IMG/VR virus record: IMGVR_UViG_3300027525_000023
Location: 1-30,854 of that record
Direction: 5' to 3' (one strand)
Origin: a virus
DNA length: 30,854 nt
Under the pieces are notes generated by a model, which was not told where the DNA came from, did no database searches, and worked only from the letters and a program-made list of their open reading frames with translations. Of the stretch, positions 16,880-30,519 are shown piece by piece; the first letter of the stretch is position 1; each line of letters opens with the position of its first letter. Both the position numbers and the translations under genes were made by a program.

Positions 16880-17122
16880 TTATTCCTTATCTAAGTTAAT
16901 TAGATCCAACACAGTGGTCACTGCTCTGTTGTATCCGTTTCGATCTGCCTGTTTATAAGCCCAAGAAGGGGAATCATAATCATTTGCAGGGGTTGTATCC
17001 TTTAGCATAGGCTCTAGGATTTCTTTAAGACGGTCTAATCCCTCTCTCTGAGATTGCAGTGTTTGTGCTACCGCCTCTTTATCTTTCTTTGTCTTACAGT
17101 CTTTGAACCAAGCTGCCTTCAT
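16880..17122 (-). CDS. Small helical protein between portal and scaffold
   Basis: The protein has 80 aa and is charged (MKAAWFKDCKTKKDKEAVAQ at the start). A helical segment QSQREGLDRLKEILEPMLKD precedes YDSPSWAYKQADRNGYNRAV and TTVLDLINL. It overlaps the portal gene by four bases (ATGA-type junction) and ends two bases before the scaffold gene, so it is translationally coupled to both. Small proteins of this kind are frequent beside the portal in T7-like marine phages and have no assigned role. I see no metal-binding or DNA-binding motif. Confidence 0.7.
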   Translation of the reverse strand: MKAAWFKDCKTKKDKEAVAQTLQSQREGLDRLKEILEPMLKDTTPANDYDSPSWAYKQADRNGYNRAVTTVLDLINLDKE

Positions 17123-18912
17123 TCAATAGGCTCCTCAGGAGCTTCCTCAGTAGCCATCTCTAGCTCTTGGCTACCCTCTTCTATTTTTTCTTCTTGATCA
17201 GCCTCATACTCAACCTGTGCCTCTGTGACAACCTTCTGAGTCTCTAGTTGTTCAGATACTGCAACGTTCTCACCAAATAGAGCTGGTTCACCTAGTTCAT
17301 CAGCTAACAATCTAGCAAACTCTTTACCTGATAGATGTGATGCAACACTTGGGTCAGATGCTTTGATCTGGTACATAGTAGTTAGGTTCTGTACACGTTG
17401 TGCTCTTTCAGCAAAGTGTCTAGCACCCATCGGTACAATCTTACCGTTAGACTTAATGTCATCTCTTGTAATCTGTGTGAAGAAATACAAACCAGTATCT
17501 TCATTTAGTACTTTAGCTGTATCTTCGTAATCCATGTTACGTCTAGATACTTCTAGCATAGCATTTAAGATTGGCTCTAAGAATACTCTCTCGAAGTGAG
17601 CAGTCTTGTGCTGGAATATTCTACCTGCTGCAGTCATAAGCTGACTAACTTCAAAGGCTGTCTTCTCACCTGCACTACGGATACCCATAGCTTCTCTTGG
17701 TGCTCCAGCCATCATCTCCATCTTAGCTTCTAGGTTCTGTATTTGGAAGTCAGCATTCAATGCTGTACTGTCAGGTACTAAGTAACCTACATCACCTTCA
17801 TCTCCTAAGTATATACGGGCATTAGGTTCGAAGTCAAAGTCCTCTACGTCACCTCTTATCTTTAAGACAGGATAAGCTATCTGATCAAATACATCTGCCT
17901 TGAGGTTCTCTAAGTGATCTATTCTGTACTGCATACCAACTAAGTTATCTAGTGGTCCCATGCTGTACAAGTTATCTGGTCTGTCTCTCCATCCTACGTG
18001 GAAGATAGGATCTCTACCTAAGAAACTAGGGTTCTCTTCATTAGATAAAACGTAGGCTCTATCAACGATAGTAATAACTCTGTTGTTTAAGAACTCACCC
18101 TTTTGTGTATCGTAGATGTCACCATAGAATGTTAGTATTTCTACGTAGTCAGATTCATAGTAATCAGTTAAGTTAGAGAAACCATCAGCTACAAAACCTT
18201 CTGACTTATCTACATCTACTTCGTTACCTTTAGCTGATCCTCTATTGCCGAGCATCTTATCAAACACACCACTCATGTAGTCTTTGTCAGGTGATGTCTC
18301 AACCATACGTTGTACTTCACCTAAGGTTAGAATAGATCTAACAATCTTTGGTGTATCTGAGAACTCAGCAGCTACTGGGTTAAAGCAGATATCAAAAGGT
18401 GAGATACGTACTAGCTTAGGTCCTACGTAGTTAACTACTCTGTCACCATCTTCAAAGTTAGTAACTTTTCTTTTGAAGTCAACAGTAGCAAAACAGTTAC
18501 CGTATTGTATGTAGTCGTTGATAAGTTTACTTGTTGTGTTAACAAAGTCAGATTGACTTAGCTTGTTCTCCATGTATGCTTGTATGATGTCTCGTTTAAT
18601 CTTAACATCTGATGCTGCATCTGTAGCTTCAAACCTGAACCATCTTTTCTGAGGAAACAATGCAGCAAAGTAGTTAGCATGTAGGTTGTCAGCAATCTGT
18701 GTTAACTTAGGTGTAGTCGTTGAGTTAGACCAAGGTAACTTATTGTTACTAGTTGTTCTAGTATCTGTAGCATAGATATAGTTACGTAACTCTTTCCACT
18801 CTTCTAACTTAGAAGAACGAGAGCTATTCCATGAAGACCAACGGTTAGCTATTTCCACAGCTAGGGTATGAGGATCTATAATACTTTCAATGTCAATAGT
18901 AGTGCCAGCCAT
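17119..18912 (-). CDS. Portal (head-tail connector) protein
   Basis: The protein has 597 aa. ATG at 18912 follows a TTGGAG ribosome-binding site. Features typical of podovirus portals include an N-terminal helical region (EIANRWSSWNSSRSSKLEEW), the KLPWSNSTTTPKLTQIADNL segment with the following AALFPQKRWFRFEA, and YIQYGNCFATVDF. Later come GVFDKMLG and IDHLENLKADVFDQIAYPVL, then AGAPREAMGIRSAGEKTAFE and EVSQLMTAAGRIFQHKTAHF leading into the long C-terminal helices, ending in a very acidic tail (EEAPEEPIE). Twelve copies would form the ring at one capsid vertex through which terminase pumps DNA. Order terminase-portal-scaffold-coat supports this. Its own promoter carries operator-like palindromes. 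Confidence 0.85.
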   Translation of the reverse strand: MAGTTIDIESIIDPHTLAVEIANRWSSWNSSRSSKLEEWKELRNYIYATDTRTTSNNKLPWSNSTTTPKLTQIADNLHANYFAALFPQKRWFRFEATDAASDVKIKRDIIQAYMENKLSQSDFVNTTSKLINDYIQYGNCFATVDFKRKVTNFEDGDRVVNYVGPKLVRISPFDICFNPVAAEFSDTPKIVRSILTLGEVQRMVETSPDKDYMSGVFDKMLGNRGSAKGNEVDVDKSEGFVADGFSNLTDYYESDYVEILTFYGDIYDTQKGEFLNNRVITIVDRAYVLSNEENPSFLGRDPIFHVGWRDRPDNLYSMGPLDNLVGMQYRIDHLENLKADVFDQIAYPVLKIRGDVEDFDFEPNARIYLGDEGDVGYLVPDSTALNADFQIQNLEAKMEMMAGAPREAMGIRSAGEKTAFEVSQLMTAAGRIFQHKTAHFERVFLEPILNAMLEVSRRNMDYEDTAKVLNEDTGLYFFTQITRDDIKSNGKIVPMGARHFAERAQRVQNLTTMYQIKASDPSVASHLSGKEFARLLADELGEPALFGENVAVSEQLETQKVVTEAQVEYEADQEEKIEEGSQELEMATEEAPEEPIE

Positions 18913-18934: not shown

Positions 18935-18971
18935 TGTGATAATTATATCACAGTGTGATAAATATGTCAAC
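18935..18971. promoter_or_regulatory. Tandem operator-like palindromes over the portal promoter
   Basis: TGTGATAATTATATCACA (18935-18952) is an inverted repeat with perfect 7-bp arms covering the -10 box. A second, imperfect copy, TGTGATAAATATGTCAAC (18954-18971), covers the spacer and -35 box. The overlap region also gives a 15-base palindrome, TATCACAGTGTGATA (18946-18960). A dimeric regulator bound here would block RNA polymerase. Near-identical sites occur at 28016-28106. Confidence 0.7.
18942..18970 (-). promoter_or_regulatory. Perfect sigma70-type promoter for portal and capsid genes
   Basis: Minus-strand TTGACA (18965-18970) and TATAAT (18942-18947) are separated by 17 bases, a full consensus match. 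The start of transcription is expected near 18935, about 23 bases before the portal ATG. It lies in the 61-base gap between the large terminase and portal genes. Unlike the other two perfect promoters it lacks their shared flanking sequence and instead is covered by palindromes. Confidence 0.85.
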
Positions 18972-18973
18972 AT

Positions 18974-27166: not shown

Positions 27167-27658
27167 TCAGTTCACTAACCCTATCCTTGCTGCATCATCT
27201 TTAGTTTCTGCTTCATTACGAGCAGCATCCTTCAAGGCTCCATCTAATTCTTCTCTAGATGGTCTACCTCGTTTCTTATCGTTACCTTCTAAGTAACCAG
27301 CATCAGCTAAGTACTTCTGAGCATTGTAACTGGCTTTACCCTCATTAAGATCATTGATCATGTTCTTAACTGTTCTAGCCTTTAACTTCAGTACTAACTC
27401 TTTCTTCATCTGAACATGATGTTTCTTAAACCATATCAGGTTACACAGGTTTTCCCAAACAGAGAAGTCACCAAACACAGACATTGCAAATTCGTACTCT
27501 GTTGGGTCTTCCATATCAATATAGATCTTATGAAGGGACCTGTAGGTAGTACCAGATACTTTGTGGTCTTTCTTCTTTAAAGAATATAAAGTTAACTCGT
27601 TTCTTGTATCTGGTAGTGTAGTCTCATAGAACCACGTCTTACTAGGTTTCTTAGCCAT
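27167..27658 (-). CDS. terS: Probable terminase small subunit
   Basis: The protein has 163 aa, basic and helical, and is the first gene of the leftward late unit. The second half (KLKARTVKNMINDLNEGKAS, YNAQKYLADAGYLEGNDKKR, GRPSREELDGALKD) matches the wording around the C-terminal helix of small terminases in marine phages, where a K/R-R-G-R-P-S segment follows a helical DNA-binding and oligomerisation part. A classical helix-turn-helix is not obvious in the N-terminal half (LYSLKKKDHKVSGTTYRSLH). It would recognise phage DNA and load the large subunit. Distance from terL (over 6 kb) is unusual but the strong promoter in front fits a late packaging gene. A regulator is the alternative. Confidence 0.6.
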   Translation of the reverse strand: MAKKPSKTWFYETTLPDTRNELTLYSLKKKDHKVSGTTYRSLHKIYIDMEDPTEYEFAMSVFGDFSVWENLCNLIWFKKHHVQMKKELVLKLKARTVKNMINDLNEGKASYNAQKYLADAGYLEGNDKKRGRPSREELDGALKDAARNEAETKDDAARIGLVN

Positions 27659-27710: not shown

Positions 27711-27797
27711 ATGTATCTGTTACTACTAACAATAGTACTTATGTTTATATACTCTCAGGCTTACTTGTTAAGAATATTATACAGGTGTTTGTATTAG
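27711..27797 (+). CDS. Candidate 28-residue membrane peptide
   Basis: ATG at 27711 follows a strong ribosome-binding site (GGGAGAAGGGATAAG). The frame reads MYLLLLTIVLMFIYSQAYLL and eight more residues (RILYRCLY) to a TAG at 27795-27797. The first 20 residues are almost wholly hydrophobic, followed by a basic end, the profile of a single-pass micro-protein. It lies antisense to the small-terminase leader and overlaps that promoter. No promoter for the plus strand is clear, so it may be an accident of sequence. Confidence 0.25.
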   Translation: MYLLLLTIVLMFIYSQAYLLRILYRCLY

Positions 27798-27807
27798 TTG
27801 TCAAGTA
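27763..27807 (-). promoter_or_regulatory. Perfect sigma70-type promoter heading the leftward late unit
   Basis: Minus-strand TTGACA (27799-27804) and TATAAT (27776-27781) are separated by 17 bases. Transcription should start near 27769, giving a leader of about 110 bases before the ATG at 27658. The -10-to-start sequence is the same cassette as at 15060-15079 (one difference in 20 bases). The long leader has no visible terminator but leaves room for post-transcriptional control. Confidence 0.85.
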
Positions 27808-28015
27808 CTAATTTATTATTTATTTAAATTAACTTGTTTTAACCCTCTGTACTCATTACTAAGACCAGTAGGATTGCTAAGGGGTATACAGGTCCCTTTT
27901 GAGCCAAAGTTCTTCTATACTATTACTAGGGGGTTTTAGATCGTGTCCAAGATTTCTGTTAGTAAATATTTTTGTGTATTGTACATACAAGAGGCATACC
28001 CCCTAACCCCCTCCC

Positions 28016-28106
28016 TGTGGTATAAATGTCACACTGTTGTAAAAATAATACATGCAATCCCTCTGGCTGTGGTAATTATGTCACACTGTGCAGCATATAT
28101 GTCACA
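28016..28106. promoter_or_regulatory. Cluster of operator-like palindromes
   Basis: TGTGGTATAAATGTCACA (28016-28033) and TGTGGTAATTATGTCACA (28068-28085) are imperfect inverted repeats. A third site at 28089-28106 (TGCAGCATATATGTCACA) keeps the right half well and the left half poorly. The right-hand 10-mer ATGTCACACT is identical in all three. Start-to-start distances are 52 and 21 bases, close to five and two helical turns. The second site differs from the portal operator at 18935-18952 by only two symmetric A/G changes. Confidence 0.65.
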
Positions 28107-28251
28107 CTCTTGGATGCGGTGATACGTCCACAACATCAACCACAACTACTAACCCATTGATTAAATTTAATTAACTATGTTAACCAACTAATAAAACTAT
28201 TTAATTATATTAACTGTTTTAATATTGTTTATAAATTAATTAAATTAATGC

Positions 28252-29561: not shown

Positions 29562-30329
29562 ATGAATATATTAAGTTTATTTGATGGTCTATCTTGCGGG
29601 CAAATTGCTTTAAATAATATTGGTATTAAACCAAGTAAATATTATGCGAGTGAAATAGATAAGTATGCAATCAAGGTAAGGGATAAAAACTTTCCTGATA
29701 CAATTGATGTCGGAGATGTCACAAAAGTTTGTGCAGCAAAATTGTCACACATAGATTTATTGATTGGTGGCAGTCCATGCCAAGGTTTTAGCCGTGCCAA
29801 TGGTGGTAAAGAATTAAACTTTGATGATCCAAGGTCAAAGTTATTCTTTGAATATGTTAGGTTACTAAAAGAATTAAAACCTAAGTATTTCTTACTGGAA
29901 AATGTTAGCATGAATAAAGAAAGTTTAGATATAATATCTGAACAACTAGGCGTGCAACCAATCATGATAAATTCTGATAGGTTTATTCAACAGAATAGAA
30001 AGAGATATTACTGGACTAATATTCCACTAGGTGAGATACCTTCAAGACCTGAGTGGCAAGGTAACTTTTATCAATGGCGTAGGACATACTACAGAAAGAA
30101 TAAGTCTGGGGTATCACCTTGTTTGACTGCTAACATGGGTACAGGTGGACACAATGTTCCTTTAAAATCTGAGAACAAACAAGACAAGCTAACACCTAAT
30201 GATTGTGAAGCATTGCAAGGTATACCACAAGATTATACTAGTGGGGTTAGTAATTGCCAGAGATACAAAATGATAGGCAACGGTTGGACAATACCAGTAA
30301 TAGAATTTATATTGAAAGGGATAAAATAA
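29562..30329 (+). CDS. Solitary DNA (cytosine-5) methyltransferase
   Basis: The protein has 255 aa and nearly all core motifs in order: motif I (LSLFDGLSCGQIAL, residues 4-17, S-adenosylmethionine site), motif IV (GGSPCQGFSRA, catalytic C73), motif VI (ENV, 114-116), motif VIII (QNRKR, 144-148), a short target-recognition part (about 150-208, including PCLTANMGTGGHNVP), motif IX (LTPNDCEALQGIP) and motif X (GNGWTIPVIEFI). It methylates carbon 5 of cytosine in double-stranded DNA. The target site cannot be read from sequence. No restriction endonuclease gene is next to it, so protection against host restriction or marking of phage DNA is more likely than a complete restriction-modification system. 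It is short for the family because the recognition region is small. Confidence 0.93.
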   Translation: MNILSLFDGLSCGQIALNNIGIKPSKYYASEIDKYAIKVRDKNFPDTIDVGDVTKVCAAKLSHIDLLIGGSPCQGFSRANGGKELNFDDPRSKLFFEYVRLLKELKPKYFLLENVSMNKESLDIISEQLGVQPIMINSDRFIQQNRKRYYWTNIPLGEIPSRPEWQGNFYQWRRTYYRKNKSGVSPCLTANMGTGGHNVPLKSENKQDKLTPNDCEALQGIPQDYTSGVSNCQRYKMIGNGWTIPVIEFILKGIK

Positions 30330-30330
30330 A

Positions 30331-30519
30331 ATGGATAAATCTTTAAGTTGTTGTCCTGAGTGCCTGAGCAAATCGTATAGGCGTAAACTAAAAATAATTG
30401 ATACAAGGGAATATTTTAAGCTAGGTTACCCGTCCACTAAACGTAGAAAGAAATGTTTGACGTGCGGGTATAGAGTTAATACAGTAGAAATACAATTAGA
30501 AAAGGAAATAATAAAATGA
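30331..30519 (+). CDS. NrdR-like zinc ribbon protein
   Basis: The protein has 62 aa. Two Cys pairs (C8-P-E-C11 and C42-L-T-C45-GYR) flank a basic segment (KIIDTREYFKLGYPSTKRRK). The wording closely follows the N-terminal zinc ribbon of the ribonucleotide reductase repressor NrdR (CPxC ... D-x-R ... R-R-x-x-C-x-x-C-G-x-R ... E), but the ATP-cone domain is absent. It should bind zinc and probably DNA or RNA polymerase. The ATG lies one base after the methyltransferase stop, and its ribosome-binding site GAAAGGG is in the last codons of that gene, so the two are coupled. A regulator of early transcription is a plausible inference. Confidence 0.75.
   Translation: MDKSLSCCPECLSKSYRRKLKIIDTREYFKLGYPSTKRRKKCLTCGYRVNTVEIQLEKEIIK

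Follow-up and report, generated by a model that had tools for sequence, protein, structure and literature searches.

Introduction

Podoviruses related to T7 that lack an RNA polymerase depend on the host enzyme for the timing of their late genes. Repressor operators that overlap the -10 and -35 boxes of sigma70 promoters are a control element of a general kind; the CRP site reads TGTGA-N6-TCACA, and short repeats lie at the concatemer junction of T7. For the sioviruses, no account of late promoter control was found in the open-access literature, and the main text of PMC6775973 contains neither 'promoter' nor 'palindrom'. The same text describes SIO1 as lacking an RNA polymerase and gives direct terminal repeats (DTRs) of 159-173 bp for ICBM1-3 (PMC6775973).

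The closest published architecture that we know of is that of CrtJ/PpsR of Rhodobacter. According to PMC9144470, this regulator binds TGT-N12-ACA, either as palindromes on the -10 and -35 boxes at bchC or as looped distant sites; its sites are typically eight nucleotides apart, or distant.

Here we describe a 30,854-base record of a marine phage (IMG/VR IMGVR_UViG_3300027525_000023), called the window below and analysed at its full length. It shares several features with the CrtJ/PpsR arrangement of PMC9144470: TGT-N12-ACA occurs at 18935, 28016, 28035 and 28068 in an alphaproteobacterial setting, with a palindrome on a -10 box, a further site over the -35 box and distant sites in the DTR. Unlike the published case, the -35 site is one base longer, the eight-base gap is absent, the inner bases change symmetrically and the promoter is that of a phage. 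Because the close-pair spacing departs from the known one, we do not file the sites under CrtJ/PpsR.

Other systems resemble the locus in part. The portal site (18935-18952) has the arms TGTGA and TCACA of a CRP site, but eight bases lie between them (TGTGA-N8-TCACA); the original prediction was right to set it apart from standard CRP sites. It shares its core-promoter position with repressor operators in general, whereas the window adds a second array inside the terminal repeat of the virion. This array lies at the genome ends, as the T7 junction repeats do, yet its TGT-N12-ACA sites lie within the repeat itself and appear again at a promoter. Read from sequence, the window would thus combine an operator-controlled sigma70 promoter, in itself of a known kind, with an unusual second array in the terminal repeat.

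Results

The virus and its relatives

By its terminase, portal and capsid genes and the gene order of its late arm, the window belongs to a siovirus of the Zobellviridae (Cobavirinae), a relative of roseophage SIO1. Terminase identity is 91.7-94.2% with P12053L, ICBM1, ICBM3 and SIO1, whose late-arm gene order is similar, and 87.4% with a second SIO1 record. The named hosts of these relatives are Rhodobacteraceae. The record ends within the early arm, most of which is absent. What is present includes a C5 cytosine methyltransferase gene (29562-30329) and a small gene at 30331-30519 whose match to the NrdR zinc ribbon falls just short of the Pfam cut-off (26.8 bits against 27.2). In P12053L, the early arm encodes a DUF1127 protein (L004 12959-13138).

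A palindrome on the portal promoter

The portal (head-tail connector) gene, at 17119-18912 on the minus strand (phrog_332, E 4.4e-107; PF12236), stands behind a sigma70 promoter at 18942-18970 (minus strand) that matches the consensus TTGACA-N17-TATAAT exactly. Centred on the -10 box is an 18-bp palindrome, TGTGATAATTATATCACA (18935-18952, minus strand), which would extend from about -17 to +1. The TGTG of its left arm is in part shared with an extended -10 element. One base further lies an imperfect second site, TGTGATAAATATGTCAACA (18954-18972, minus strand), of the form TGT-N13-ACA. It covers the -35 box and starts 19 bp away from the first palindrome. It exceeds the other members of the family by one base and shares letters of its left arm with TTGACA; a sequence resembling it lies over the -35 box in 19 of 63 contigs.

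These 63 contigs are those of 68 loci with a readable terminase end; in L066, L069, L080, L081 and L084, left out of the count, the terminase match ends before the gene does. TTGACA-N17-TAWWAT was found in 62/63, starting 3-4 bases past the terminase stop codon, and promoter and palindrome occur together at the same place in 61/63. The two misses are L065, where the left arm is one base off and the inner arms are symmetric, and L075, where the terminase is 61% identical and the promoter is absent.

The palindrome also changes on both sides at once. A tree was made from the terminase and portal DNA that flanks the palindrome in 64 contigs, chosen with a pattern that permitted one-sided forms; on it the pair 4/15 underwent three flips from G-C to T-A: positions 4 and 15 each changed three times, and every change was two-sided, as is expected of a dimer's operator. 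Pair 5/14 is looser, with 10 pair changes and 7 and 8 changes at its single positions. Across 12 distinct portal operators, pair 4/15 is complementary in all 12 against 7.5 expected (p 0.0045, relatedness ignored), and pair 5/14 in 6 (p 0.17, not significant). Conservation and two-sided change support the original proposal that the operator of a dimeric protein sits on the portal promoter.

Symmetry of this sort could instead serve a hairpin in read-through RNA: four of the five variants folded form a 7-bp stem and a 4-nt loop. Their z-scores, however, lie between -1.32 and +0.69, and the fifth variant has no hairpin; moreover, palindrome and -10 box coincide in 61/63 contigs and similar sites are found in the DTR. 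We give the hairpin almost no credence.

If the palindrome is an operator, the phage might exploit a CrtJ/PpsR-type regulator of its host, whose motif and promoter placement are those described above and whose bearers would fit the Rhodobacteraceae named for the relatives. The TGT-N13-ACA form of the -35 site and a gap of one base in place of the typical eight speak against this, as does the presence of the same promoter type in unrelated phages. Two-sided change at 4/15 among such close relatives would, in addition, favour a co-evolving, phage-encoded binder. A host regulator of this type is therefore very unlikely, and an operator for a dimeric protein remains our preferred reading of the portal site.

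Similar promoters in other genomes

Promoters of this design are not confined to sioviruses. In viral contigs, the pattern TTGACA-N12-TGTKNTAWWATTANMACA matched at least 119 stretches, against 5 when its last three bases were changed to AAC and 10 when its right arm was changed to NKTGT, both controls altering the right arm only. A recount of 114 places with the palindrome on the -10 box gave 50 siovirus portal promoters and 64 others, the latter falling into 30 lineages by downstream sequence. In these lineages, pair 5/14 is complementary in 19/30 against 7.9 expected (0 of 20,000 permutations), and pair 4/15 in 14/30 against 11.3 (p 0.18, not significant).

The behaviour of pair 5/14 bears on whether there is an operator at all. 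A promoter that reads in both directions, each strand bearing an extended -10 element, would be symmetric by itself; TGTGNTATAAT is such an element, and the -10 core is indeed nearly symmetric. But 5/14 is free in that element and nevertheless complementary in the 19 lineages, and the T4 forms break its TG yet change on the other side too. The DTR sites, furthermore, have no consensus promoter of the form sought over them. We hold this explanation to be highly improbable and continue to regard the palindrome as an operator.

Four loci (L110, L127, L128 and L199) have a palindrome-on--10 promoter at the end of a portal gene; for L127, the best named relatives belong to the HMO-2011-type podoviruses, with 22-25% identity across roughly half the protein. 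At L116, L155, L167 and L175 the promoter ends at the start codon, which suggests leaderless transcripts; the L116 gene is primase-like. Bacterial genomes contain at least 117 palindrome-on--10 stretches, a count made with no pattern control that says nothing on enrichment; many of the 80 matches listed are from Clostridia or other Firmicutes. In the bacterial set, complementarity at pair 5/14 is 46/118 against 31.3 expected (p 0.001) and at pair 4/15 it is 49 against 49.8.

The window itself has a further sigma70 consensus promoter at 27776-27804 (minus strand), that of the DTR-side gene and the tail module, with no operator of this palindrome family over it. A promoter behind the capsid gene (15101-15073, minus strand) resembles it. 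Both read TTGACA-N17-TATAAT, then TCTTAACAAGT after one or two bases, and both copies read TATAATAGTCTTAACAAGTCTCCCCTG in P12053L, ICBM1 and SIO1. The two probably form a second late-promoter family, distinct from the portal promoter.

Sites in the predicted terminal repeat

The remaining sites lie in a predicted DTR at about 27978-28121, whose boundaries follow from homology to positions 1-172 of ICBM1 (PMC6775973). This homologue of the ICBM1 repeat is located inside the window contig. Within it are TGTGGTATAAATGTCACA (site 1, 28016-28033), TGTTGTAAAAATAATACA (site 2, 28035-28052, a TGT-N12-ACA whose start is 19 bp from that of site 1), TGTGGTAATTATGTCACA (site 3, 28068-28085) and the degenerate TGCAGCATATATGTCACA (28089-28106); successive starts are 19, 33 and 21 bases apart. 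All sites named in the original prediction (18935-18952, 28016-28033, 28068-28085 and, as degenerate, 28089-28106) are real; 28035-28052 and 18954-18972 had been missed.

Sites 1 and 3 resemble the portal site: two DTR sites of the window depart from it at 2 and 3 positions. When the portal site serves as query and no more than three mismatches are allowed, 28016-28033, 28068-28085 and the portal site give three matches against 0.06 expected, a count that includes the query itself; none of 100 shuffles reached three. A looser pattern adds one place within two mismatches, at 29732, inside a gene.

The cluster had been taken for an early control region housing the early/late switch, a reading that the sequence does not support: it lies in the predicted DTR, and no early promoter was established over it. 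No consensus promoter of the form sought lies over the window's DTR sites. The closest consensus late promoter (27804-27776) has its -35 box 212 bp away from the nearest of them.

At the left boundary of the repeat (27978-27995) stands TTGTACATACA, followed by a C-rich stretch. The combination is common to many siovirus records and is also found in ICBM2, CRP-5, L345 and L349; it is possibly a terminase cut-site signal.

One motif class at two loci

TGT-N12-ACA is enriched in the DTRs of other phages. Eleven non-redundant DTRs, derived from 16 of 21 loci, hold 20 occurrences, where dinucleotide shuffles give 1.19 and no more than 5 in any of 200; this count leaves out the window, L004, L023, L087 and L090, hence the window's clade and P12053L. 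The enrichment is specific to the spacing, the same DTRs holding one N11 and one N13 form. Across whole genomes, TGT-N12-ACA exceeds the shuffled number by a factor of about one and a half to slightly above two (window 16 against 9.8, ICBM1 19 against 10.6, P12053L 26 against 11.3, SIO1 17 against 11.6).

A matrix made from the portal operators leads to the DTR as well. It was built from the arms only of 12 distinct portal operators, the window-clade form being omitted for the window scan and the own forms of other records kept. In six of the eight siovirus records scanned that hold both places (the window, P12053L, ICBM1, 3300021197, 3300046169 and 3300047373), it ranks the portal site first and a DTR site second. 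In SIO1 a DTR site comes third, behind the repeat's left boundary, and in 3300027672 this boundary is the sole DTR match. The second-ranked DTR scores of 3300021197 and 3300047373, 10.7 and 10.6, are not above the mean shuffle maxima (10.8 and 11.0), so that in these two only the place is telling. L074 and L077 hold both places as well and lie outside the eight-record scan. Enrichment and matrix ranking agree with the original claim that the two loci share a motif class.

Whether they also share a protein is less clear. Two of the 11 DTRs, those of L039 and L101, are without TGT-N12-ACA, and L039 retains its portal operator; one shared regulator is therefore not established. In the DTRs of L039/L100 and L101 the repeats are replaced, with two copies of AGTTAATCCATCACATTAACT in L100 and one variant in L101. 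CRP-4 has a DTR site and no portal operator, and ICBM2 and CRP-5 have neither. Inside the DTR sites, the inner pairs are no more complementary than the column make-up predicts.

Such cases would suit two different proteins, a transcription regulator at the portal and a replication or packaging protein at the DTR, the TGT-N12-ACA likeness being convergence. L039/L100, which keeps the portal operator beside a DTR with other repeats, the converse state of CRP-4 and the lower inner symmetry of the DTR sites all point this way. On the other hand, a matrix derived from the portal operators places a DTR site second genome-wide in 6/8 records, the window's DTR sites come within 2 and 3 bases of the portal site, and site starts 19 bp apart are found at both window loci. 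We judge two proteins unlikely, if not to be dismissed lightly. The single common regulator of the original prediction is plausible on these sequences and stays unproven in view of L039/L100 and CRP-4.

A second palindrome in the terminal repeat

The third site of the original prediction, 28089-28106, is degenerate as described; in L088, L090 and other relatives, the same place holds a different palindrome, TGTTATANTATAACA, of the form TGT-N9-ACA. The 11 non-redundant DTRs contain 13 occurrences of TGT-N9-ACA against 1.29, spread over 9 of the 11, and nine of these occurrences differ from TGTTATANTATAACA by no more than two bases. As a perfect palindrome, it is present in L023, L088, L090, ICBM1, P12053L and CRP-4. 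Copies near the DTR or divergent region include L005 144-158, L008 284-298, L009 40341-40355 and L013 42042-42056, besides those of L088 and L090; in ICBM2, CRP-4 and Methylophilales phage MEP401 the palindrome likewise lies close to a genome end or the divergent region. It is absent from the window, where TGCAGCATATATGTCACA takes its place, and from L086, L087 and L089.

This second palindrome resembles a Zur box. It is the core of AATGTTATANTATAACATT, the box given for Yersinia and gamma-proteobacteria in PMC2706843, and its spacing is shared by some Caulobacter sites (PMC4176598). The Rhodobacter-group box GATATGTTATAACATATC, however, has another spacing, and the known hosts of the relatives are closer to that group (PMC2706843). 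As a TGT-N9-ACA, TGTTATANTATAACA stands outside the N12 family, and it is lost from the window.

Candidates for the binding protein

P12053L has 36 early proteins; the 10 of them scanned against Pfam include one HTH protein only, gp03 (HTH_39). We rejected it as the binder: tblastn found neither gp03 nor gp02 in 10 window-clade sequences with a partial early arm, four of which gave a match to gp20, and ICBM2 has gp03 without the operators. The NrdR-like protein of 30331-30519 was set aside as well, NrdR boxes having arms of the opposite orientation.

Beside the DTR, at 27167-27658 on the minus strand, is the gene of a 163-aa protein assigned to phrog_8035 (unknown function) in 5/5 scanned. It was aligned with 26 positional homologues. 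Its structural model (mean pLDDT 67.4) has its best match in phage protein 2ao9 (Foldseek E 0.15, Z 4.1), with 7joq, the NV1 small terminase, at Z 3.0. From model and position, the protein may be a small terminase subunit.

Such a protein could be the binder, recognising the DTR array for the start of packaging and shutting the portal promoter as feedback. Its gene adjoins the DTR, positional homologues exist in the aligned cobaviruses and other Zobellviridae, the model combines a three-helix unit with a long helix, and L152 has a palindrome-on--10 promoter directly before the homologous gene. The fold matches are weak, however, and homologues occur in ICBM2 and CRP-5, phages without the operators. 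Relatives with completely different DTR repeats have versions of the protein that are 83-98% identical, which speaks against it as the binder. We consider this role decidedly unlikely. Candidates for the binder are thus a regulator of the phage, the possible small terminase and a protein of the host.

Discussion

We propose that a dimeric protein occludes the portal promoter and that the DTR array is filled by this protein or a relative of it, a reading that we think somewhat more likely than not. In this scheme, a dimeric DNA-binding protein would bind sites of the motif class TGT-N12-ACA. Sitting on the -10 box of a consensus promoter, and perhaps on the -35 box, a dimer would most simply repress by occlusion: it would block the sigma70 RNA polymerase of the host at the portal gene, and in the window's clade a second dimer would perhaps join it on the imperfect -35 site. 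Expression of the head genes would have to wait for loss, dilution or inactivation of the protein.

The same or a closely related protein would bind the DTR, which has one to three sites, or more with degenerate ones, often 18-21 bp or about twice that apart. Placed in the terminal repeat, these sites would be present at both ends of the virion genome and at every concatemer junction. One could go further and see in the DTR array and the portal operator a single timer coupled to replication and packaging. A phage protein, possibly the small terminase, would repress the portal promoter; new genome copies or concatemer junctions would soak it up, and head synthesis would wait for enough DNA. This extension is speculative, and we doubt that it is correct.

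The recurrence of the promoter in 30 other lineages, with four cases directly behind portal genes, suggests a control design that reaches beyond the sioviruses. A conserved, symmetrically changing operator on a head-gene promoter makes the question of their late-gene control testable, and an array of this motif class within the terminal repeat would tie transcription to the biology of the genome ends.
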